From the NCBI GenBank assembly GCA_905221605.1, contig CAJNDS010000246.1, positions 123,554-187,553 of the forward strand: a DNA stretch of 64,000 nucleotides, in the 5' to 3' direction. Positions 5,576-15,691 of the stretch are shown piece after piece (the stretch's first letter is position 1; every line of letters starts with the position of its first letter). A program made the position numbers and the translations under genes. Source of the stretch: Symbiodinium natans (lineage: Eukaryota; Sar; Dinophyceae; Suessiales; Symbiodiniaceae). The notes beneath the pieces were generated by a model, which made no database searches, was not told the DNA's origin, and saw only the letters and a list, made by a program, of their open reading frames with translations.

Positions 5576-5700
5576 CTTCTGGTCTTGCACTGCTTCGGGC
5601 TTTGGTTTGAGGATTGAGGGTGCATGACACTGCTTGGTGCTTTGGGTTGAGGATTGAGGGTGCATGACACGTTTGGGCTTGCACTGCTTCGGGTTTAGGG
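5576..5700. repeat. Tandem duplication leading into telomeric tract
   Basis: Segments of about 45-50 bp containing TTGCACTGCTTCGGG and TTGAGGATTGAGGGTGCATG recur two to three times with small changes immediately before the telomere-like repeats. They resemble degenerate telomeric DNA (GGTTTGAGG, GGGTTGAGG). Confidence 0.6.
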
Positions 5701-5785
5701 TTGAGGGCCTGGGGTGTAGGGTTTAGGGTTTAGGGTCAAGGGTTTAGGGTTTAGGGTTTGAGGGTTTAGGGTTTCGGGTTTAGGG
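5701..5785 (+). repeat. Interstitial telomere-like tract (TTTAGGG)n
   Basis: About ten TTTAGGG units, several degenerate (TTGAGGG, TTTCGGG, GTCAAGG), run up to the copia-like element. Its last unit supplies the TAGGG that is duplicated on the far side of the element, so the element landed in this tract. TTTAGGG is the telomere unit reported for dinoflagellates and plants. The tract is internal to the window, so it is interstitial here unless the assembly is chimeric. Confidence 0.85.
5781..5785. repeat. Target-site duplication TAGGG (left)
   Basis: TAGGG directly precedes the left LTR and recurs directly after the right LTR at 15687-15691. Five bp is the usual length for copia-type integration. 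Confidence 0.9.
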
Positions 5786-6014
5786 TACGGGGGGCAACCG
5801 AAGGAGGACAGAGAACAAAACAGTCAACCCCAACAGAAGCCCTTAATACCCCTGGAACAACCAACAACCGAACAGCAAGACCCCAAACCAAGGGCACACT
5901 TTTTACGGAATCTTCGACCGCTTTGGTCATGGCTTGAGCCAAAGAATACCGGGTTCATTGACCCTTCAACTTCCAATACCAACTCCTTTCTACAATACCA
6001 ATTGCAGCTCCGCA
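5786..6014 (-). repeat. 3' LTR of the copia-like element
   Basis: This is one of two 229-bp direct repeats. Read on the element's strand it begins TGCGGAGC and ends CCCCCGTA, so the usual terminal CA is TA. An 11-nt match to the end of the dinoflagellate spliced leader, TTTGGCTCAAG, lies inside it on the element's sense strand (5943-5933). Polyadenylation and promoter signals were not identifiable by eye. Confidence 0.95.
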
Positions 6015-6027
6015 CTCCCCCTGTCCT
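6015..6027 (-). promoter_or_regulatory. Polypurine tract for plus-strand priming
   Basis: On the element's strand AGGACAGGGGGAG lies directly against the first base of the 3' LTR, the expected position of the RNase-H-resistant primer of plus-strand synthesis. Confidence 0.85.
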
Positions 6028-6199
6028 AGGATTTCCTAGGACACATTGGAGGTGCAAATCTTTGGCCAAAAACCGCCATTTAGGCAGCAGCCAGCTGCTT
6101 GAAATGCACATTGTGGTTTAACCTCTTCCAGGACGAACCTTCAGCTCATTGGCTGAATCCTTTACCATTGAGGATTTCTTCACCTTGCACTTGGAAAAT

Positions 6200-7033
6200 T
6201 CACGTTCCAGCGGCTCGTTCCTCACCAAGGAACTCAGCATTCACCACCCAGCCATCCTTGAGGCAATGCTTACAAAGCGTCTTAGCTCTGAGCTGTGAAT
6301 ATCGCAGAACATCACAGTCACTGCTTGCGTGCATACAGTTCCCACCCACTGTTGTATACAAAGTGGCACTCGCAGGAATAACCACCGCTTTCTTGATCCA
6401 CAGCCATTTATACAGCCGTCGAAAGAGGCACCATGCCAGTTCCCAGAGTATAATCGCTGCCACCAAATATGCAACAAGGTCTGAATTGTTGACAACCATT
6501 TCAATACCTTGAGCCAGAACCATCACCGCAGACGTGTTGGCAACCTTGCACACCCCTTCTTCTGAGCAAAAGAATCCAGCAGTTGACACTTCTTCGCCAC
6601 CAGTTGCCATCCCTTGCAGAGATGCAGCCACCATCATGACCGCCATTGCAAGCGAGGCTTTTTTCAAGTCAGTCCCTTGTACCAACAGTCGGAGACCCCA
6701 AAGTGCCTTTTGCTTTGCGTACACCTGTCCACTCATCAACTTAGTCAACAGGTCAGCGATCATATACTCACCGCGAAGATGCGCTATCACCATATAACCA
6801 CGGTCCACCAGAGACCTGACACCGGCTGCTCGAATTCTCAGGTGTCTTGTCCTCCAGCTTCCAGCAGGATATTGAATGATCGAGCACGTTGAAACCGAAT
6901 CTGTATACAGCACTTTTTGCAGCGATTCTTCACCTGTTCCAACCAAAGCGGCAATTATAGGGGTGCACGACTGAATCATCGTTGCTCCCTCTATAGACGC
7001 ATGCAATTCAGCTTCAGCTGTATTTAAAGTCAC
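6200..7033 (-). CDS. Copia-like RNase H C-terminal part plus membrane/Cys-His tail
   Basis: This frame continues the polyprotein after a frame change at the RNase H active site. Residues 1-115 are the rest of RNase H: TAEAEL (Glu), YTDSVS (Asp45) and ADLLTK (Asp94) match the copia-type catalytic residues whose first Asp (YADASF) lies in the preceding ORF. The true junction is upstream of the listed Met: in-frame codons reading HNSTQRQSTVT run into TLNTAEAEL. Residues about 120-277 are not part of a normal copia polyprotein. They contain hydrophobic segments near 125-140 and 186-202, a basic cluster, then a compact Cys/His motif (C233, H235, C240, C254, C257) resembling small zinc-binding tails. 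The function of this tail is unknown; an envelope-like or membrane-anchoring role is only a guess. Confidence 0.85.
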   Translation of the reverse strand: MTLNTAEAELHASIEGATMIQSCTPIIAALVGTGEESLQKVLYTDSVSTCSIIQYPAGSWRTRHLRIRAAGVRSLVDRGYMVIAHLRGEYMIADLLTKLMSGQVYAKQKALWGLRLLVQGTDLKKASLAMAVMMVAASLQGMATGGEEVSTAGFFCSEEGVCKVANTSAVMVLAQGIEMVVNNSDLVAYLVAAIILWELAWCLFRRLYKWLWIKKAVVIPASATLYTTVGGNCMHASSDCDVLRYSQLRAKTLCKHCLKDGWVVNAEFLGEERAAGT

Positions 7034-10000
7034 CGTTGATTGTCTTTGTGTTGAATTATGACTGGACAGTCACCCCACACCACCACCGCTCCTGAGTGGC
7101 TCTTTTCGTTTTCACCTGCTGCAAAGCTGGCATCCGCGTAGGACTCCACCACTTTAACGCCTCGTCCATAGCGCAACACCTCATTTCTTTCTTTTTCGCA
7201 TGTTGCGATTGCTCCGAACGTCAAGCCTAACGTTGGAGTTGCAGCAAGGTATCGGAAAACTTCCTCAGCCTTTTTAACCACAAATCGCGGCCTTCGGGAT
7301 GTCCACAAAGACAACTGGCTCGTGCAGAACGCCAAATCAGGTCGAGTTTTGATTGCCACCCAGAGGAACTCCCCTACGGCACCTTGAGCCGCTCGCAAGG
7401 AAGGAATATCCACCTCCTCTTCTTCACCTGGAGTTTCTTTCACCATTGGCAGGTTACTCCCTTTTCCAGTTTCATCGATCTGATACCCTCGTCGGTTCAG
7501 CAAATCTCTCACAAAGTCCTCCTGGTTGAGAAAGAAGCTGCCATTTCGATACCAGATTTGGACACCTAAAAACTTCAGGAATCCATCACCGCAGCCTGGA
7601 CCACAGAACTCGGGTTCAGAAGTTTTCCACTCCTTCCTAATCTGTTCCAAGGCCTCCCGGAGCACTGTCATAGTCCCAGCCATCAAAAAATCATCCACGT
7701 AAAGACCCATTGTCCCTACCAACTTGCTTGCACCTTCCGGCTTCTCTTGCGCCATAATAAGGAACAGACTTGGGTCTGCGTTGGACCTCTGAAAGCTCAT
7801 TGCTTGTCCATCCTTTGACACCCAAGACATACCTTGAAGACGTTGGTCTCGCCACTCCACCCATGCTGCAGGACTTTCGGCCAAACCATACAAGGCCTTC
7901 CTCACAATCCACCGCTCCTCTTTTGTGCAAAGACCCAATTTCACCGCCGCCCTTGGGGGCTGCACCACCACCAAACGCCCTTCTCTTTGCGCCCTATTCA
8001 TCGGCGCCGTCAGAAAAGCTTTGGAAATGTCTAAGCCAGCGATGATCCACACCATATATGCTGCGTGCCTCACTTGACACCTGAATGTAGTTGAATCTAA
8101 ACCTGGAGCGTACAGCGAGTGACGACTGAGTGACCTCGGCCCTTCATATTCTGTAGCTGCCGTTGACGAAATGAAGTTTCCACATGCACAGATACGGGCA
8201 CGTCGCCTCCCTGTCCCTTGCTTCCGGGTAAACACCACCAGACTGGGAACGTACTCAATCACCGGTGCATTAGGCTCTTCCGCCAATTTGTCCAGCTTTT
8301 CTTGAGTTGTTGGTTCCACCACCTCCAACTCTTTCACCAAAGACGTCACCTCGTCCGACAATGATTCCCTCCACTTTTCCAGCTCTTGCATGGCTTCTTG
8401 TGTAGGAATTGTTTTTGTTTGCAGGAACTCAACCTCCTCCGCTGCCTCAAGCGCGGTATTTTCTTGTACCATTTGCTGAACTTGAGCTGCTTTGACCAAA
8501 AACTTCGATAGCTGTTCCTCAGCCCTTTTTGCTTTAACCAGCCATTCTCTAGTCTCTGATCCTTTTTCTTCACTCGACTCATTGGCCGATCCATGGAACT
8601 CGTCCAAGATGCAACATTCCTGTTCAGCAATTAGGCGTCGAATACTCAAATGCTCTTCTAGAGCCCATTGATGCGCTTCGAACACAGCGTAGTCGACTTC
8701 CTCGGCAAGGTCGTCCAGCGAGGTTTCTTTCAACGTCATTTTTAACCACTTCCTTTTTCCACCTTCTTCAGCCTGTGGTTCCGGAAGAGGAAACTTGCAT
8801 TGGAGAAGATAGCACCTATCCTTGTAGCCCAAACGCTCCATAAAAACAGGCGTGTACCCTGTCAAGGATACCCTGTTTCCTTTCCAAGGCATAGGGCCAT
8901 GCAGCTTTCTCGGAAAGAACGACATGAAGTTCCACTGGATATCCACCAATTTTCCAGGTAGGACTTTCTTCCCATAGGATTGCTCCACCACTTCAGCTCC
9001 TTCCTCTAAAACCTTTTCATCCTCAACCCACAGCTGACCATCTTTATAGTCACCAAAGCCACACACATAATTGCAGCAATGTTTTTCATTGTGACTATCC
9101 CTATGCAATGACACCGGAGCATTGCACGAGATTTGAAGAGCAGAAAATTTGGCTTCAGGATTGTGGTGCCTCACGAATGATGCCAAATAACGACATAGCC
9201 ATGGTCTTCGATGAGTCTCCTTTGTAATACCACACACTCCGCCATGAGTATAGTGGCCCAACACCAGAGCTCGCGTACTTGTACACCAATTGTTGATACC
9301 ACCTCTTCGATTCACCCTCTTTGGGTATACAATCCCTTCCAAAAGCTCCTCACAGTCCACGTAATCATACATAGACCTTTCATACATTGACTTGGCTTTT
9401 TGCTCTTCTTTTTCCAACTGTGTTCCATCCTCAGCAGTCCCACTTTTGCAGACCAAATAAGCATTTTCATGAGGAGAACAGCAAGTCGGCCAATACTCAT
9501 CACCAGGAACATTGTCCTCAACATCTGCATTTTCTTCCAGCTCCCCCAGACCCTGCATGTCATCCTCAAAAAATTCTAAGGGCGGACTCTCCCCCCGCTT
9601 GCGAAGCAAGCGCAAGGAGCCCACATGACCACGCAGTGAAGAGGCCGGGCTTTTCTCCATCAACCGATGGCGAACTGGAGGATCTCGAGGCGGAGGTAAA
9701 GGAGGTCCTTCCTCATCCGCAAACCGAAGCGCCGGTTTTTTCCCTTTGAGACGATGCTCTGGAGGAGAAGGCTCCTGTTCTTCTACCACCCCTTCCAGCT
9801 CCAATTCAGGCGGTTCCTTTATATTAGAAAAAATCGTAGTGCAGGGAAATAACACCAGTTCATCCGGATCTTTTGCAGTCCCTTGAGCTTCCACCCAATA
9901 ACCACCAGGTAGGTCATCGCATGGACCCAAAAGAAGCGCAGGCTGCGTACGATCGACCCATTGCCGACCTTTCTTTGTTCCATCCGGACCCAGCAACTCC

Positions 10001-10185
10001 CACGGACGACGTTTGACTTGAATCTGAGCACCAAAGGGAAGCAATGCTTTAGGATTCAACCCCAACTCCCTTTCAGCTTTCTGCCACCGTAACATTGACC
10101 AATGGCGAGCAGCCAGTGCCCAGTACGCCGGCCCGAGTCGCGCCTCCTTTAAGAGCGACCTGACACCACGTTTGAATAAACCCAC
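7030..10185 (-). CDS. Copia-like integrase C-terminus, 2OG-dioxygenase-like domain, reverse transcriptase, RNase H start
   Basis: The frame is open upstream to about 10311, where it carries integrase residues SDRAGEF and PQTNGRAE. The listed start is only the first GTG after that, so it is not a real start. Next come the integrase C-terminal region, an acidic Pro-rich linker, and at about 9330-8800 a domain with the 2OG-Fe(II) dioxygenase signature: HRD (9105-9097), a distal His (8901-8899) and NRVSLTGY. A coiled-coil-like acidic linker follows. The RVT_2-type reverse transcriptase has DISKAFLTAP (near 8020), KALYGLAESPAAW and YVDD (near 7700). YADASF and SHSGAVVVWG (near 7130-7080) open RNase H. 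The ORF ends at TGA 7030 because of a frame change; the continuation is the 6200-7033 frame. Confidence 0.92.
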   Translation of the reverse strand: MGLFKRGVRSLLKEARLGPAYWALAARHWSMLRWQKAERELGLNPKALLPFGAQIQVKRRPWELLGPDGTKKGRQWVDRTQPALLLGPCDDLPGGYWVEAQGTAKDPDELVLFPCTTIFSNIKEPPELELEGVVEEQEPSPPEHRLKGKKPALRFADEEGPPLPPPRDPPVRHRLMEKSPASSLRGHVGSLRLLRKRGESPPLEFFEDDMQGLGELEENADVEDNVPGDEYWPTCCSPHENAYLVCKSGTAEDGTQLEKEEQKAKSMYERSMYDYVDCEELLEGIVYPKRVNRRGGINNWCTSTRALVLGHYTHGGVCGITKETHRRPWLCRYLASFVRHHNPEAKFSALQISCNAPVSLHRDSHNEKHCCNYVCGFGDYKDGQLWVEDEKVLEEGAEVVEQSYGKKVLPGKLVDIQWNFMSFFPRKLHGPMPWKGNRVSLTGYTPVFMERLGYKDRCYLLQCKFPLPEPQAEEGGKRKWLKMTLKETSLDDLAEEVDYAVFEAHQWALEEHLSIRRLIAEQECCILDEFHGSANESSEEKGSETREWLVKAKRAEEQLSKFLVKAAQVQQMVQENTALEAAEEVEFLQTKTIPTQEAMQELEKWRESLSDEVTSLVKELEVVEPTTQEKLDKLAEEPNAPVIEYVPSLVVFTRKQGTGRRRARICACGNFISSTAATEYEGPRSLSRHSLYAPGLDSTTFRCQVRHAAYMVWIIAGLDISKAFLTAPMNRAQREGRLVVVQPPRAAVKLGLCTKEERWIVRKALYGLAESPAAWVEWRDQRLQGMSWVSKDGQAMSFQRSNADPSLFLIMAQEKPEGASKLVGTMGLYVDDFLMAGTMTVLREALEQIRKEWKTSEPEFCGPGCGDGFLKFLGVQIWYRNGSFFLNQEDFVRDLLNRRGYQIDETGKGSNLPMVKETPGEEEEVDIPSLRAAQGAVGEFLWVAIKTRPDLAFCTSQLSLWTSRRPRFVVKKAEEVFRYLAATPTLGLTFGAIATCEKERNEVLRYGRGVKVVESYADASFAAGENEKSHSGAVVVWGDCPVIIQHKDNQR

Positions 10186-10428
10186 ACATGCTTCAGCGCG
10201 CCCATTTGTTTGCGGGACTCCAGGATCACCAGTGGTCCTATATATCAGACGAGTTTCGCAAAAGGACCGGAAGCGTGCATTGACAAACTCCCCCGCTCGA
10301 TCCGAGTGGTCTCTGCAAGCGCACCATCATTCTTTGAACTGCCGACAAAACAGTTGTTTGCTGCTTATCCACAATCGGCTCCACCATAACGAAGTTGATC
10401 ATACGGACAGGTTGGGTCAAGTGGTCCT
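10186..10428 (-). pseudogene. Integrase catalytic core, out-of-frame bridge
   Basis: The 1,665- and 1,051-codon frames are in the same phase, but this stretch is not open in that phase throughout. From about 10438 to 10311 the conserved integrase sequence (VRMINFVMVEPIVDK, then QRMMVRLQ) is read in another phase. At about 10311 the original phase resumes with DHSDRAGEF (second catalytic Asp, 10302-10300), then PQTNGRAE (Glu, 10194-10192). The Asp-Glu spacing is 35 residues, the classic DD35E. Two compensating one-base shifts of opposite sign explain this best. Real mutations and sequencing errors cannot be told apart from a single copy. Confidence 0.8.
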
Positions 10429-13400
10429 TCAGTTCCTTCCAGGATTTTCAGAAGCTTGGATTTTCAACACCTCTGCCTCCAGAACTGGCGCAGGTTCCAC
10501 CGGCGCAGAGTCTTCCTCCTCGAAGTTAGCGACTGCGTCGCCTAACCATTCTCCGACACCAGCACCTTCATCTGCCACCTGATCTTCCACCTCATCCGCA
10601 TCTTCCTCCTTTTCTGGAGGGCGACCCACATTGGGATCCAACATTGGAAATTGATACACACCAATAACAGCGTGTCGTGGCTTCTGCTGGTGAGCATCCT
10701 TTGAACACTTGTATGGACCAGCTAAGTCCAATGATAAAGTGTAAGCATCCCCACGCTTTCGCCTCAAATGGCGACGCTCTTTTCCAGCAGCAGACACACA
10801 GATTTGACAATCACGTCTGAAGGGAATATGCCCCCTTAGGCAATGGTCACGGAAAGCTCGCTCCTCAGTCGTCAACCTCCGTAACGTCCCTTCTCGTTCT
10901 TCTTTTTGTAACACCGCAGCTTCCCGTTCAGCATCGCTCTCATGCAACCATTGTGCCAACCTGTGACGTATTCTTTTAACCAATCCAAACGCCCATCGCG
11001 CCCATATAGAGGATTGTCCAATACGCTCTTCCAGGGTAGAAGCGAATGTTGCTGACCACGGAACAACCACGCGAACTTGTTCTAACGATTCCCATAGTTC
11101 CATATCAGACACCAGGAAAGTCGTAGGTTTCACCAGAGCATGTCCCAACGCTCCTTGATCAAAGTGTGCAGCGTGCATTCCATAACGCTCACAAAAGCTT
11201 TTCACCTCTGGCCAACTCCAGAAGGTAGGACTTGAGAGCCCTTCCTGAGAACCATCCACCAGATCCTCAGCACTCAAGACCGTCTTGCCGTTCTGAGAGA
11301 AATCTTTCCCTATGAGTTCAGGGTCCCCAGGGCTTTCCATGCCAAAAAAGACAGAACTCCCATTGATGACTTCAGCAGTTCCACACCTTGAATGCACCGC
11401 CACGTCATATAGGAAAAGCATCTTCAGAAGTAAAACACCATCCTTTTGAGCTAATTCTTGATGTGGCCAAGGAAGACTTTTTAACCCCAACCGTTCAGGT
11501 CCACAGCGTCGGCGTAATACAGGTGGACCACCGTCTTCACCTCTCAACCTTGACACTGTCCTGCATGGAGGTCCTCCCACCACAGCAACCACCTTTCCTT
11601 CAGCCGCCAGATGCAGAAGATACTTCCAGACGCTCGAATTATGTAGGTCACCGCCTTTTGTCAAATCCAGCTCCAGTACCTCCACATCCCGACTGGGAAA
11701 ATGCCATTTTTGTTTTCCCGAAAACAGGTGTACCACCACCCTTTTTGCTCGTGCCAGCCGTCTCCTTTTATGACGGTTGAAAGGCAACGCCGCAATATCT
11801 CCACGTGGCAACAGCTCCATCAGCATATTTTCTGGTATATCCCCATAATACCACCGAAGAAATCTCCAGCATGCCTGGACGAACTCCTCCTCATTCGCTG
11901 ACGCTGTCCGCGCTGCGCTTTGCAACGACGTTTTTACAGCCACCTCGTTGTCCGTATTCGGACACCCTTGAACCATACGTGCCACCTTCAAAGCTTGCTT
12001 TGGTGAGCACCAATCCATTTCATCAATGATCTGAAGCGCCACCTCCTTTTCCAAACAAGGGCACCCATTCAGATCACGAACGCGAAGTTCCCCCAGAACA
12101 GGATGTGAGGCTGTGCACTTGCCACCACGCCACTGAACTCTGAGACCAACCAAGGCGCTCGCTTTGCCAATTGGCACTAGTGGATCTACCATTTCAGGAG
12201 TTACCAGGGTCCCACCTGGGGTTATACACATCTCCCGAGATCCAACAGCTAAAGACACCAACACCTTTTGCTGCGGAAGCTGTTCTCCAGGACGAAGTGA
12301 TCTGAGAGGATGCGATGCTCCCGAGTCCAACATGCCCATTCCCGAACACTCATTGGTGTCAGAAACCCTGGCCACATGTAGAACGCATACTCCTCGGCCT
12401 TCTCCCTGCTTCGGCAACAACGTGGCATCCGACGAACCGACTCCACAGTCCGCCCTTCCATTCCTCCATTGAGAATGGGACCAAGACGCACGCTGCCTTT
12501 CAGCATGCAAAACCATTTTTTCAGCTGTTTTGTAATCCATAACCAAACAGCCATGTTCAAACCACAAGAGCTGGTCCAGCGAAGATTTTGCACCCACGTG
12601 ACACATCCCATTGATCACCGTGAGGTTCGCCCCAAACTCCAAAATCAACCAGAGAGGGATAATCAGGGGCCCATTGTCTTCCCTAATCAACGTCCCTTTC
12701 TCTGTAATCCTCATTGCCACACCACCAAGCGCGCTTTGCACCATAACAGTAGTGTCGGGTAAACATTCCCATGGAAAAAGCGTCCGCACAAGATGCGTAG
12801 CAGCCGTATCCACCAACGCCACTCTCCCTTCCTGCTGAAACAATCCAGATCCACATAACATTCGAACACTGGGATCCCCGCTCGAGGCTGACTGCGCTGA
12901 TGACAGCTTCATAGATTTCAGCACTTCCAACGCTTCAGCAAGGACTTGATTGGGTGTTGATGGTGATGAGGGACTTGCAGAACCTTTATCCAATCCCGCA
13001 CTAGCCGTCTCATCTCCCCCTTCAGCTACCTCTGCCTTTTTGGCATTTCCCCATTTCGCACCTTTGCCGCCCTTTCCCCCTTTGGGAGAATTCCCTTTAG
13101 ATCTGCTTCTCTCAGGGTTTGAGTCCACGAAGGAACTTGCACCATCCTTATATGGACATTGCGGCTGCAAATGGCCAACGGCCCCACACTCAAAACATCT
13201 TCCTCGCTCAAGGGAGTCTTTGTCATGGCGGAATTTACAGCGGGATCCGAACTTGCAACCTGCATCGGTCTTCCCATATATCCAACAGAAAGGACGTTCA
13301 CCATCTCCGCTGTACCTTTTTCCTTTCCCTTTGCCTTTGTCACCCTCCTCTGTCTCGTCACCAGTTCCCTTTTGGGCCTTATTTAACCTGGCCCTTTTCT

Positions 13401-15396
13401 TGGCGTCCGAGTCCTGCTTCACCTCTTGTTCACCAGCACTATGCAATAGCAGTTCAAACTCTGCCTGCAACATTTCAGCTAGTGGTGTCGCAGTTTCAGA
13501 GGTCGGCGAGTAGTCCACCCCCAATTTCTCCCGAAAGGATGCCACTCTGAAATGCACCGTAGGGTGTTTTGCCAGCAACGCGGATGATAAAGCATCCAAT
13601 CCCTTGATAAGCAAGGTAGCGTCTGGCTCGGATGCTCGCAGCTCCCTTAATCGGGAACGCCATTGCGCCCATTGTCGCACTCCCTTAATAGCCTCTGAGA
13701 TCGAGGTTGCTGAAGATGGTTGCACCAAGAAGTTCAACATTGTGCTGCGCTCATTTGCTCCACCTGGTTGGTAGACCGTCAGCAATTTGTAAAATATCAT
13801 CACCGACCCCAACATTCGAGTGGAAACAATCTCGGTCTTCAATCTCTCCGGGATCGCCTGTAGCAGCAAAGACACCGCTCTCTGCTCCAACAAAACATGC
13901 GCAGTTTGAACCACTTTGAGCCCTTCTAGCTCAGCCTTGATGCCCAACCTTTCCAGCGGAGAAACACTCAACCATTTGGCATACGCTTGATACGCCTTTG
14001 AATAGACGCATTGCCACCACACTCCTCCTGTATCTGTCAGCGAAGACAACATTGGTTCGATCATTGCGATCCAATCACCCAGTGCTGTCGGATTGCTTGG
14101 TGTGTAGTCTGCCAAAGTTGGAAGGCTCATCACATGCTTCCCGAGAGCCTCCGGACGTTCGGTTCCAGAACTATCACCAGTGATTGGCGTACCGCGTGGC
14201 ACCACTGCTCCAGGAGGTAAGCTGACCCTTCCACCAGGCCCTTGAGGTAGTCCATGTCCTATACCAGGCGTAACAGCTGTGAGCGGAACCTTTTCTAATT
14301 CCAACTTCCCAGCGACCATTTTCCACCGATGCGGAACCTCATCCACCATTGTATATCCACCCGATCCTGCTGAGTTCTCTTGCATTGCAGTTTCCCGAGC
14401 TGAAACAAAACCGGGCTGGTTCCCCGCAGGTGCGACAGAACCATCAACGCCTGATGGCACGGAAGTAATCGGAACATGTGTTAAACCAGGTGGTCCACCT
14501 GCATATCCACCACTTGCAGGACCTCCCGTGGGGTAATTCAATGGAGGCAATCTGGAGGGTTTCTTCCCTTCAGCCACATGCATCATTGGCACTTCTTTTT
14601 CGTCCTCCACATGAACATCCCCCTTCCTGGACCCAGGCAAGGATTGAAGATCACAACCCTTTGGCAGGTCGTAGCCCTCAATAGGCAGCCATGTCCCATC
14701 AGGCAACACAGTCCAAAAACCACCCATACCATCCGTGTAGAAAACTTGTCCTGGCAGGTACTGCTTCTCTGGAGTCATTCCTAGAGGATATGCCGTGTTT
14801 GCGTCCACCACTCCAGAGCTCCGTGCCCTTGAAGCTGACCCAGATGCAGCAGAGGTATAGCTTTTTTCCTCCACCCGATGCAACCTGTTCCCCAGCTCCT
14901 TTGTCTGCACAAGCAACTCTTTCAGCGCACGCTTCACCACCGCCATATCTTCAGATTGCTCTTCACCACTAACATCAGGAATGAGTTCTTCGTCGGCTTG
15001 CACTCCACCAATAGTACCTCGTTCCATTTGTCCCATTAAGCCTGACGATGGTCTCTCAACAGGTGCAGGTTCCTGACCCAAAAGATCTTGCAGCGAAGGC
15101 GGTCTTCTCGTACCTTCACCACTCCTGTCCCCTCCGCTCGCGGGAAGACTTGCCGGCCTTGACTGCCTAAGTCTCATTTCTTCTTGAGCCCGCTCGCTCC
15201 AGAAAGGATTTGCTGCTTGAACCGGAACCACTTCGTTTTCCACCTGAGGCGTTGGTTGTATCATTGCAACCTCCCTACCATCTGTCAGTGCTTGTACCAT
15301 TTGTTGTCGATCTTCACCCCCATCACCACGATTTCCTTCGGCTTCATTGGCCGTTGGCGACAGTCCAGGCTCAGAGCGACGCCGCATCATGTCCAT
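10429..15396 (-). CDS. Copia-like gag, tandem proteases, methyltransferase-like domain, integrase N-terminus
   Basis: I chose the first ATG (15396); the frame is open about ten codons further but only from a TTG. The N-terminal third is gag-like (Pro/Ser-rich, then helical). At 13292-13154 a CCCH finger (CKFGSRCKFRH) is followed by a CCHC knuckle (CFECGAVGHLQPQC) for RNA binding. Two retropepsin-like repeats follow: one with LVDTAATHLVRTL (near 12820) and one with MLDSGASHPLRSL (near 12330). At about 11750-11030 is a C5-methyltransferase-like domain: HLFSG, GGPPCRTVSRLR (Cys codon 11565-11563), FFGMESPGDPE and GALGHALVKPT. The integrase zinc region (DHCLRGHIP, DCQIC) and first catalytic Asp (LSLDLAGPY) end the frame. 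The TGA at 10431-10429 follows PGRN and interrupts the integrase. Confidence 0.9.
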   Translation of the reverse strand: MDMMRRRSEPGLSPTANEAEGNRGDGGEDRQQMVQALTDGREVAMIQPTPQVENEVVPVQAANPFWSERAQEEMRLRQSRPASLPASGGDRSGEGTRRPPSLQDLLGQEPAPVERPSSGLMGQMERGTIGGVQADEELIPDVSGEEQSEDMAVVKRALKELLVQTKELGNRLHRVEEKSYTSAASGSASRARSSGVVDANTAYPLGMTPEKQYLPGQVFYTDGMGGFWTVLPDGTWLPIEGYDLPKGCDLQSLPGSRKGDVHVEDEKEVPMMHVAEGKKPSRLPPLNYPTGGPASGGYAGGPPGLTHVPITSVPSGVDGSVAPAGNQPGFVSARETAMQENSAGSGGYTMVDEVPHRWKMVAGKLELEKVPLTAVTPGIGHGLPQGPGGRVSLPPGAVVPRGTPITGDSSGTERPEALGKHVMSLPTLADYTPSNPTALGDWIAMIEPMLSSLTDTGGVWWQCVYSKAYQAYAKWLSVSPLERLGIKAELEGLKVVQTAHVLLEQRAVSLLLQAIPERLKTEIVSTRMLGSVMIFYKLLTVYQPGGANERSTMLNFLVQPSSATSISEAIKGVRQWAQWRSRLRELRASEPDATLLIKGLDALSSALLAKHPTVHFRVASFREKLGVDYSPTSETATPLAEMLQAEFELLLHSAGEQEVKQDSDAKKRARLNKAQKGTGDETEEGDKGKGKGKRYSGDGERPFCWIYGKTDAGCKFGSRCKFRHDKDSLERGRCFECGAVGHLQPQCPYKDGASSFVDSNPERSRSKGNSPKGGKGGKGAKWGNAKKAEVAEGGDETASAGLDKGSASPSSPSTPNQVLAEALEVLKSMKLSSAQSASSGDPSVRMLCGSGLFQQEGRVALVDTAATHLVRTLFPWECLPDTTVMVQSALGGVAMRITEKGTLIREDNGPLIIPLWLILEFGANLTVINGMCHVGAKSSLDQLLWFEHGCLVMDYKTAEKMVLHAERQRASWSHSQWRNGRADCGVGSSDATLLPKQGEGRGVCVLHVARVSDTNECSGMGMLDSGASHPLRSLRPGEQLPQQKVLVSLAVGSREMCITPGGTLVTPEMVDPLVPIGKASALVGLRVQWRGGKCTASHPVLGELRVRDLNGCPCLEKEVALQIIDEMDWCSPKQALKVARMVQGCPNTDNEVAVKTSLQSAARTASANEEEFVQACWRFLRWYYGDIPENMLMELLPRGDIAALPFNRHKRRRLARAKRVVVHLFSGKQKWHFPSRDVEVLELDLTKGGDLHNSSVWKYLLHLAAEGKVVAVVGGPPCRTVSRLRGEDGGPPVLRRRCGPERLGLKSLPWPHQELAQKDGVLLLKMLFLYDVAVHSRCGTAEVINGSSVFFGMESPGDPELIGKDFSQNGKTVLSAEDLVDGSQEGLSSPTFWSWPEVKSFCERYGMHAAHFDQGALGHALVKPTTFLVSDMELWESLEQVRVVVPWSATFASTLEERIGQSSIWARWAFGLVKRIRHRLAQWLHESDAEREAAVLQKEEREGTLRRLTTEERAFRDHCLRGHIPFRRDCQICVSAAGKERRHLRRKRGDAYTLSLDLAGPYKCSKDAHQQKPRHAVIGVYQFPMLDPNVGRPPEKEEDADEVEDQVADEGAGVGEWLGDAVANFEEEDSAPVEPAPVLEAEVLKIQASENPGRN

Positions 15397-15445
15397 GGCG
15401 TTAAACAAACGAAAAATCTTTACCAATCCGCAGGAAGCCTAATTT

Positions 15446-15457
15446 GGGCTCATAACC
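15446..15457 (-). promoter_or_regulatory. Primer-binding site for half-tRNA initiator Met
   Basis: Directly inside the 5' LTR the element reads GGTTATGAGCCC. Its complement GGGCTCATAACC is the anticodon arm of initiator tRNA-Met (CAU anticodon with its loop and part of the stem), not the CCA end. Drosophila copia uses the same device, priming with a 5' half of initiator tRNA-Met cleaved in the anticodon arm. Complementarity may extend one or two further bases. Confidence 0.85.
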
Positions 15458-15686
15458 TACGGGGGGCAACCGAAGGAGGACAGGGAACAAAACAGTCAAC
15501 CCCAACAGAAGCCCTTAATACCCCTGGAACAACCAACAACCGAACAGCAAGACCCCAAACCAAGGGCACACTTTTTACGGAATCTTCGACCGCTTTGGTC
15601 ATGGCTTGAGCCAAAGAATACCGGGTTCATTGACCCTTCAACTTCCAATACCAACTCCTTTCTACAATACCAATTGCAGCTCCGCA
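15458..15686 (-). repeat. 5' LTR of the copia-like element
   Basis: The second 229-bp LTR; one mismatch to the 5786-6014 copy. It should hold the element's promoter. The spliced-leader-like TTTGGCTCAAG is at 15615-15605 on the element's strand. Confidence 0.95.
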
Positions 15687-15691
15687 TAGGG
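15687..15691. repeat. Target-site duplication TAGGG (right)
   Basis: This matches 5781-5785. Removing the element restores TTTAGGG running into GCTTCATGG, the edge of the telomeric tract. Confidence 0.9.

Follow-up and report, generated by a model that had tools for sequence, protein, structure and literature searches.

A 64,000-nucleotide stretch of the Symbiodinium natans genome (contig CAJNDS010000246.1, positions 123,554 to 187,553; hereafter the window, in whose coordinates all positions are given) contains a Ty1/copia long terminal repeat (LTR) retrotransposon on its minus strand (15686-5786), recognized by an LTR pair, a target-site duplication (TSD), candidates for a primer-binding site and a polypurine tract, and an RVT_2-type reverse transcriptase (RT). 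Its coding region harbors two further domains. The first, located between protease and integrase, is well supported by modelling as a divergent relative of the C5-cytosine methyltransferases. The second, located between integrase and RT, is well supported, again by its model, as a TET/JBP-type relative within the Fe(II)/2-oxoglutarate (2OG) dioxygenases. Both domains are under purifying selection, and the element belongs to a large, young and recently active family with a target preference for telomere-type repeats. A sequence-only reading of the window had proposed the two domains from short minus-strand motifs (HLFSG, MESPGDP, HRD and KLHG), and all four are in place.

The methyltransferase-like domain (284 amino acids (aa) as modelled; 10936..11787, minus strand) was assigned from a structural model, fold searches and conservation. 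Its AlphaFold2 model has a predicted local distance difference test (pLDDT) score of 82, and a Rossmann-type C5-methyltransferase fold spans the whole modelled domain. The 50 PDB matches listed for this model are all chains of the C5-cytosine-methyltransferase type; the top ones are DNMT1 and DNMT3, and DNMT2 is also among them. Characteristic motifs are HLFSG (11730-11716), GGPPCRTVS (11577-11551) and MESPGDP, which begins at aa 1367 of the first open reading frame (ORF1). Of 38 related proteins, 37 have the motif IV cysteine (GGPPC, codon 11563..11565); the motif VI glutamate (ESPGDP, codon 11335..11337) occurs in all 34 that reach its column. Both residues are present in 21/21 rows from the same genome, the window included. 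The lysine of a KPT motif is kept in 25 of the 27 related proteins reaching its column in the alignment of 38. Weak sequence leads point in the same direction, namely three PHROG DNA methyltransferase families (best E-value = 0.044) and DNMT1 at the PC motif (E-value = 1.9). We infer that this domain methylates cytosine.

The dioxygenase-like domain (191 aa as modelled; 8767..9339, minus strand) was delimited from a fold model with a pLDDT of 72, the first 22 residues being of low confidence. Its predicted double-stranded beta-helix fold is nearest to TET/JBP proteins: the best matches are TET2 and NgTET1, followed by AlkB/ALKBH proteins. The metal-binding H-x-D motif (HRDSH, 9091..9105), the second metal-binding histidine (KLHGP, 8907-8893) and the putative 2OG-binding arginine (GNRVS; together with KLHGP, 8872..8907) are all on the minus strand. 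This H-x-D...H...R set is invariant in all four lineages of the domain, which are 25-42% identical to the window, and in the 18/18 gap-free rows of the same genome, window included. The domain presumably oxidises 5-methylcytosine (5mC) or thymine in DNA. Searches of both domains against Pfam, PHROGs, NCBIfam and PDB sequences returned nothing significant, and IMG/VR scans gave no relatives of either. Weak matches to unrelated families (ribonucleotide reductase, E-value = 0.18; YjgF, E-value = 0.13; aminotransferase, E-value = 0.062) were rejected as chance.

Structure prediction, set beforehand as a check on the sequence-only reading, gave a predicted fold for each domain, and a check of the catalytic residues found the PC cysteine and the H-x-D...H residues kept in sister copies and relatives. 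The proposed C5-methyltransferase pattern before the integrase thus corresponds to a predicted fold with conserved cysteine and glutamate, and the proposed 2OG-Fe(II) dioxygenase between integrase and RT to a predicted fold that TET/JBP proteins fit best and AlkB next.

In the assembly from which the window is taken (759 Mb, 2543 contigs), a first look with the methyltransferase domain gave 828 candidates, and scores were computed for 150 of these. Every scored candidate matches the window copy at 98-100% identity, and 149 are stop-free within the matched stretch; 37 have open frames of at least 3,000 aa, and 27 frames measure between 3,080 and 3,110 aa. Twenty of the scored rows, taken from top to bottom of the ranking, were sampled and their pol stretch compared. 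Each of the 20 contains both domains. No sampled copy has a gap in the methyltransferase domain, which is complete throughout; 17 have none in the dioxygenase domain, and three have gaps of 6, 9 and 1 bases there. A single stop-free frame runs from the methyltransferase start to the dioxygenase end in 13 of the 20 copies, and is interrupted in seven. That one polyprotein carries both domains, as proposed, is seen in these 13 copies and in the sister predicted protein P0001. In the window copy itself, a frame break in the integrase region splits the domains over ORF1 and ORF2; P0001 lacks this break and reads through.

Ratios of nonsynonymous to synonymous substitution rates (dN/dS) were computed by the Nei-Gojobori method over all pairs, with the window copy included, gapped rows dropped and bootstrap intervals. 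The dN/dS is 0.059 for the methyltransferase domain (21 rows; 0.033-0.099), 0.058 for the dioxygenase domain (18 rows; 0.023-0.120) and 0.037 for RT (18 rows; 0.012-0.079). Two linkers gave 0.150 (19 rows; 0.070-0.296) and 0.092 (18 rows; 0.048-0.158), with intervals overlapping those of both domains. The methyltransferase value is biased downward, because the rows were ranked by similarity in that very domain; the dioxygenase value should suffer less. Catalytic residues are identical across all counted rows.

A search with the methyltransferase region identified 38 proteins (E-value ≤ 0.01, P0001 included) among 2399 candidates. They have the methyltransferase motifs in common at identities down to about 31%, and their copia nature was seen only where RVT_2 or rve is listed or where it was read by eye. 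Four of them (P0002, P0003, P0004 and P0007) belong to Symbiodinium sp. CCMP2592, from which the nearest named relatives come, and bear the source names RE2 or GIP. P0001, from a cluster of 550 members, is 98% identical to the window over the dioxygenase region and is the sole match among the 178 candidates of a search with that region. A profile of the four dioxygenase lineages returned 9 short proteins among 1867 candidates, and no closer kin of the domain among them. Scanning the 38 polyproteins with the profile located the dioxygenase domain in seven (P0001, P0002, P0004, P0034, P0036 and, in part, P0003 and P0007), a lower bound, since some of the remaining 31 do not extend into the stretch between integrase and RT. 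Both domains lie within one predicted protein in P0001, P0002, P0004, P0034 and P0036. The predicted protein of P0006 (82 members) skips the dioxygenase place, through either gene-model splicing or genuine deletion.

Phylogenetic trees of RT (23 rows) and of the methyltransferase domain (31 rows), which have no secure root and in which the long branches of P0034 and P0036 meet, place the dioxygenase carriers in two separate groups, with a minimum of 2 and 3 label changes. P0006 joins the window's group in both trees, as does P0005 in the methyltransferase tree, and the dioxygenase domain was found in neither protein. The integrase-RT position of the domain is common to the two groups. From this shared position and the lack of closer kin, the dioxygenase domain would be either ancestral and frequently lost, or passed between elements.

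Both ends of the same 20 sampled copies were compared for their insertion sites. A true LTR pair was obtained in 14, none within the compared pieces of five and a spurious one in the remaining copy (C1867). The LTRs are identical in ten of the 14 pairs and differ by one base in four, one of which also has a 7-base gap. Such near-identical pairs indicate recent insertions. All 14 resolved copies are flanked by a 5-bp duplication: CCCTA in eight, its complement TAGGG in five and CAGGG in one. The flanks of resolved copies (window 5700-5785; L051-L090) consist of CCCTAAA/TTTAGGG-type repeats of variable length and quality; at the window copy the telomere-type run is clear at the 3' side only. Two copies outside the resolved set (C724 and C1722) carry CCCTAAACCCTA at their 5' end. 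Outside the element, telomere-type 7-mers number 30 in 54.1 kb of the window, so that the coincidence of insertions with repeats is not due to chance. Contig positions suggest that many of the target sites are interstitial. It should also be noted that in eight copies with both LTRs (L051-L070) identity to the window LTR is 76-97%, although the two LTRs of each copy are nearly identical to each other. Read from these identities, the family comprises several young subfamilies with fast-changing LTRs.

The remaining features of the window copy, all on the minus strand, are those of a Ty1/copia element (5786..15686). Its 229-bp LTRs (TG...TA) lie at 15458..15686 (5') and 5786..6014 (3') and match at 228 of 229 positions, the single mismatch aside. 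The TSD CCCTA stands at 15687..15691 on the 5' side and at 5781..5785 on the 3' side, where it continues into a CCCTAAA-type tract. A primer-binding-site candidate, GGTTATGAGCCC (15446..15457), adjoins the 5' LTR; we take it to be a candidate match to part of the initiator methionine transfer RNA (tRNA). A polypurine tract candidate (6015..6026) adjoins the 3' LTR. ORF1 (stop to stop, 1669 aa; 10429..15438) encodes gag CCCH and CCHC zinc fingers (aa 724-762, 13153..13269; Pfam matches under the curated cut-offs), two protease-like motifs, the methyltransferase-like domain, and the zinc-type motif and core start of the integrase. ORF2 (stop to stop, 1098 aa; 7030..10326) encodes the rest of the integrase, the dioxygenase-like domain, RT (RVT_2, Pfam PF07727, E-value = 1.6e-10; aa 696-945, 7492..8241) and the start of RNase H. 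The integrase was recognized by its motifs and by a PHROG match to a transposase (ORF2 aa 7-55, E-value = 1.3e-4); Pfam rve is unmatched in the window copy, yet is listed for relatives such as P0002-P0006. The integrase lies upstream of the RVT_2-type RT, which is the Ty1/copia order. ORF3 (6200..7069), in a different frame in this copy, contains a C-terminal RNase H portion, recognized by motif, and a tail. Disrupted in both the integrase and the RNase H regions, the window copy is probably not autonomous.

The protease-like motifs are in tandem, VDTAATH (12793-12810), which lacks the glycine of D-T/S-G, and LDSGASH (12310-12330). By eye, two such motifs also occur in P0002 and P0006, and one changed motif in P0008, P0020 and P0030. 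Past RNase H, the window copy has about 150 further residues in frame (6200-6660), with hydrophobic stretches and a Cys/His-rich end.

The best explanation of these data, to which we give slightly better than even chances, is that the element makes a Gag-Pol with both enzyme domains acting mainly on its own DNA. Because both domains belong to Pol, they would be packaged in the particle alongside RT and integrase. There they would sit beside the nascent complementary DNA (cDNA) and could be supplied with S-adenosylmethionine, 2OG, iron and oxygen. The substrate would be either freshly made cDNA of the element or, immediately upon integration, the inserted copy together with its target. The methyltransferase would produce 5mC, and the dioxygenase would convert it to 5-hydroxymethylcytosine (5hmC) or beyond, or thymine to 5-hydroxymethyluracil (5hmU). 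The benefit may be that the new copy then resembles heavily modified host DNA or evades silencing. Such resemblance would be expected because 5hmU is reported in place of 12-70% of thymine in dinoflagellate DNA (PMC6723414) and as enriched in most repeats of Breviolum (PMC11071213), in the parts covered of these papers, as of all those cited here. CG methylation is described as the default state in Symbiodinium (PMC5890265). It is reasonable to infer, as the sequence-only reading supposed, an element writing and editing its own chromatin marks.

Several observations weigh against this explanation. Neither domain reaches a Pfam cut-off; PF00145 matches 0/18 members of the methyltransferase-like family, and Tet_JBP (PF12851) gives a weak match (E-value = 0.03) in one of four members of the dioxygenase-like family and none in the window member. 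Confidence in the dioxygenase model is medium, with a Z score for TET/JBP that exceeds the one for AlkB-type proteins by about 1. In the methyltransferase-like domain, a DQG..GH..KPT motif occupies the likely place of the classical motif VIII QxRxR, and the target-recognition region looks small, a short stretch preceding the last helices. Most related proteins show the methyltransferase domain alone, the seven with a dioxygenase domain including two partial ones. P0036 has glutamine for the catalytic cysteine and an intact dioxygenase H-x-D...H...R set, so the two domains need not act as a pair; this sequence suggests that the dioxygenase may be useful alone. Finally, the observed/expected CpG ratio of the element is 0.70 versus 0.73-0.96 in the sole control, six 8-kb stretches from the rest of the window. 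Being barely lower than outside, it indicates no strong self-methylation footprint. Among the copies, 56 of 269 two-state sites are CpG transitions, a bare count without control.

A possibility that we entertain tentatively is that a complete methylate-then-oxidise pathway is packaged, placing hypermodified bases (5hmC or 5hmU) on the element's own cDNA, the target repeats or both, much as in phages, which often encode a C5-methyltransferase and a TET/JBP enzyme together (PMC12730594). The element might then be one source of the modified bases of dinoflagellates. More doubtful is an anti-silencing role at host loci or old copies, in which element promoters would be cleared of host 5mC by the TET-like domain, the methyltransferase-like domain being left as a relic with a DNA-binding or regulatory function. 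Fungal DNA transposons with TET/JBP domains have been interpreted in print as escaping methylation (PMC12730594), and P0036 fits such a role; however, the near-universal catalytic cysteine and glutamate and the low dN/dS make the methyltransferase domain unlike a relic. We consider it unlikely that the domains bind or modify TTTAGGG-type repeats and thereby guide the integrase to them. Fifteen resolved insertions (14 of the 20 sampled plus the window) do share the telomere-type 5-bp site, one CAGGG excepted, but target choice in LTR elements is usually set by the integrase. A derivative of hmU is known, from the parts of the literature covered, to be abundant in kinetoplastid telomeres, which would favor such guidance. 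Modification of RNA, either the element RNA or its primer tRNA, by DNMT2-like and ALKBH5-like activities is improbable: DNMT2 is among the methyltransferase matches and AlkB/ALKBH come next for the dioxygenase, but enzymes of DNA, DNMT1/DNMT3 and TET2/NgTET1, match best. Chance motifs or decayed, functionless passengers, to which the missing Pfam matches and the frames broken between the domains (window copy and 7/20 sampled) might point, are very improbable, being contradicted by predicted folds, conservation across distant families and purifying selection.

Two captures that we found reported only apart, DNMT in retrotransposons and TET/JBP in DNA transposons, appear joined in one abundant, recently active element. 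The element makes it possible to test whether part of the 5mC and 5hmU in dinoflagellate DNA is produced by mobile elements. A divergent methyltransferase family, present in polyproteins of many copia relatives, is missed by Pfam PF00145, and the telomere-repeat target is a further trait unusual among LTR elements.

The capture of C5-methyltransferases by dinoflagellate retrotransposons, mentioned in the sequence-only reading, is indeed on record. A 2018 survey based on PF00145 described DNMTs in Symbiodinium LINE (long interspersed nuclear element) and DIRS elements and in a charophyte Gypsy element, and stated that no DNMT domain occurs in the Copia elements of Symbiodinium (PMC5890265). The blindness of PF00145 to all 18 members may explain this statement. 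The link between Copia and DNMT has already been mentioned in print: a 2025 paper refers to DNMT3 in LTR Copia elements, citing the survey (PMC12344493). Four other papers report no such element in the parts covered (PMC6338049, PMC11453091, PMC11065753 and PMC12460157). The literature searched (titles and abstract openings, most subscription papers lying outside) contained neither a retrotransposon with a TET/JBP domain or with both domains, nor a copia element specific for telomere-type repeats.

Among known systems, SymbioLINE-Dnmt, SymbioDIRS-Dnmt3 and KnitGypsy-Dnmt3 resemble the present element as retrotransposons encoding a C5-methyltransferase domain with conserved key residues. In contrast, they are LINE, DIRS and Gypsy elements detected by PF00145, with no dioxygenase mentioned in the parts covered, whereas the present one is a Ty1/copia element, undetected by PF00145, with a TET/JBP-like domain. 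Identity with SymbioDIRS-Dnmt3 was ruled out by the direct LTR pair and by the absence of a Phage_integrase match in Pfam at E-value ≤ 1. The fungal TET/JBP transposons (Kyakuja, Dileera, Zisupton, hAT, EnSpm, Helitron and others; PMC12730594) are likewise mobile, with coding regions mostly undisrupted. They are all DNA transposons, for which the parts covered mention no methyltransferase in the same polyprotein, whereas the present element is a retrotransposon with both domains. The phage pathways place methylating and oxidising enzymes in a parasite genome as well, but they include glycosyltransferases and belong to DNA-phage genomes (PMC12730594); here the two are domains of one retroelement polyprotein, in which no glycosyltransferase was noticed, no search being aimed at one. 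SART1Bm, a telomere-specific element, shares the insertion into telomeric-type repeats; it is a non-LTR element (PMC7265360), whereas the present one is an LTR/copia element with an integrase and a 5-bp TSD.

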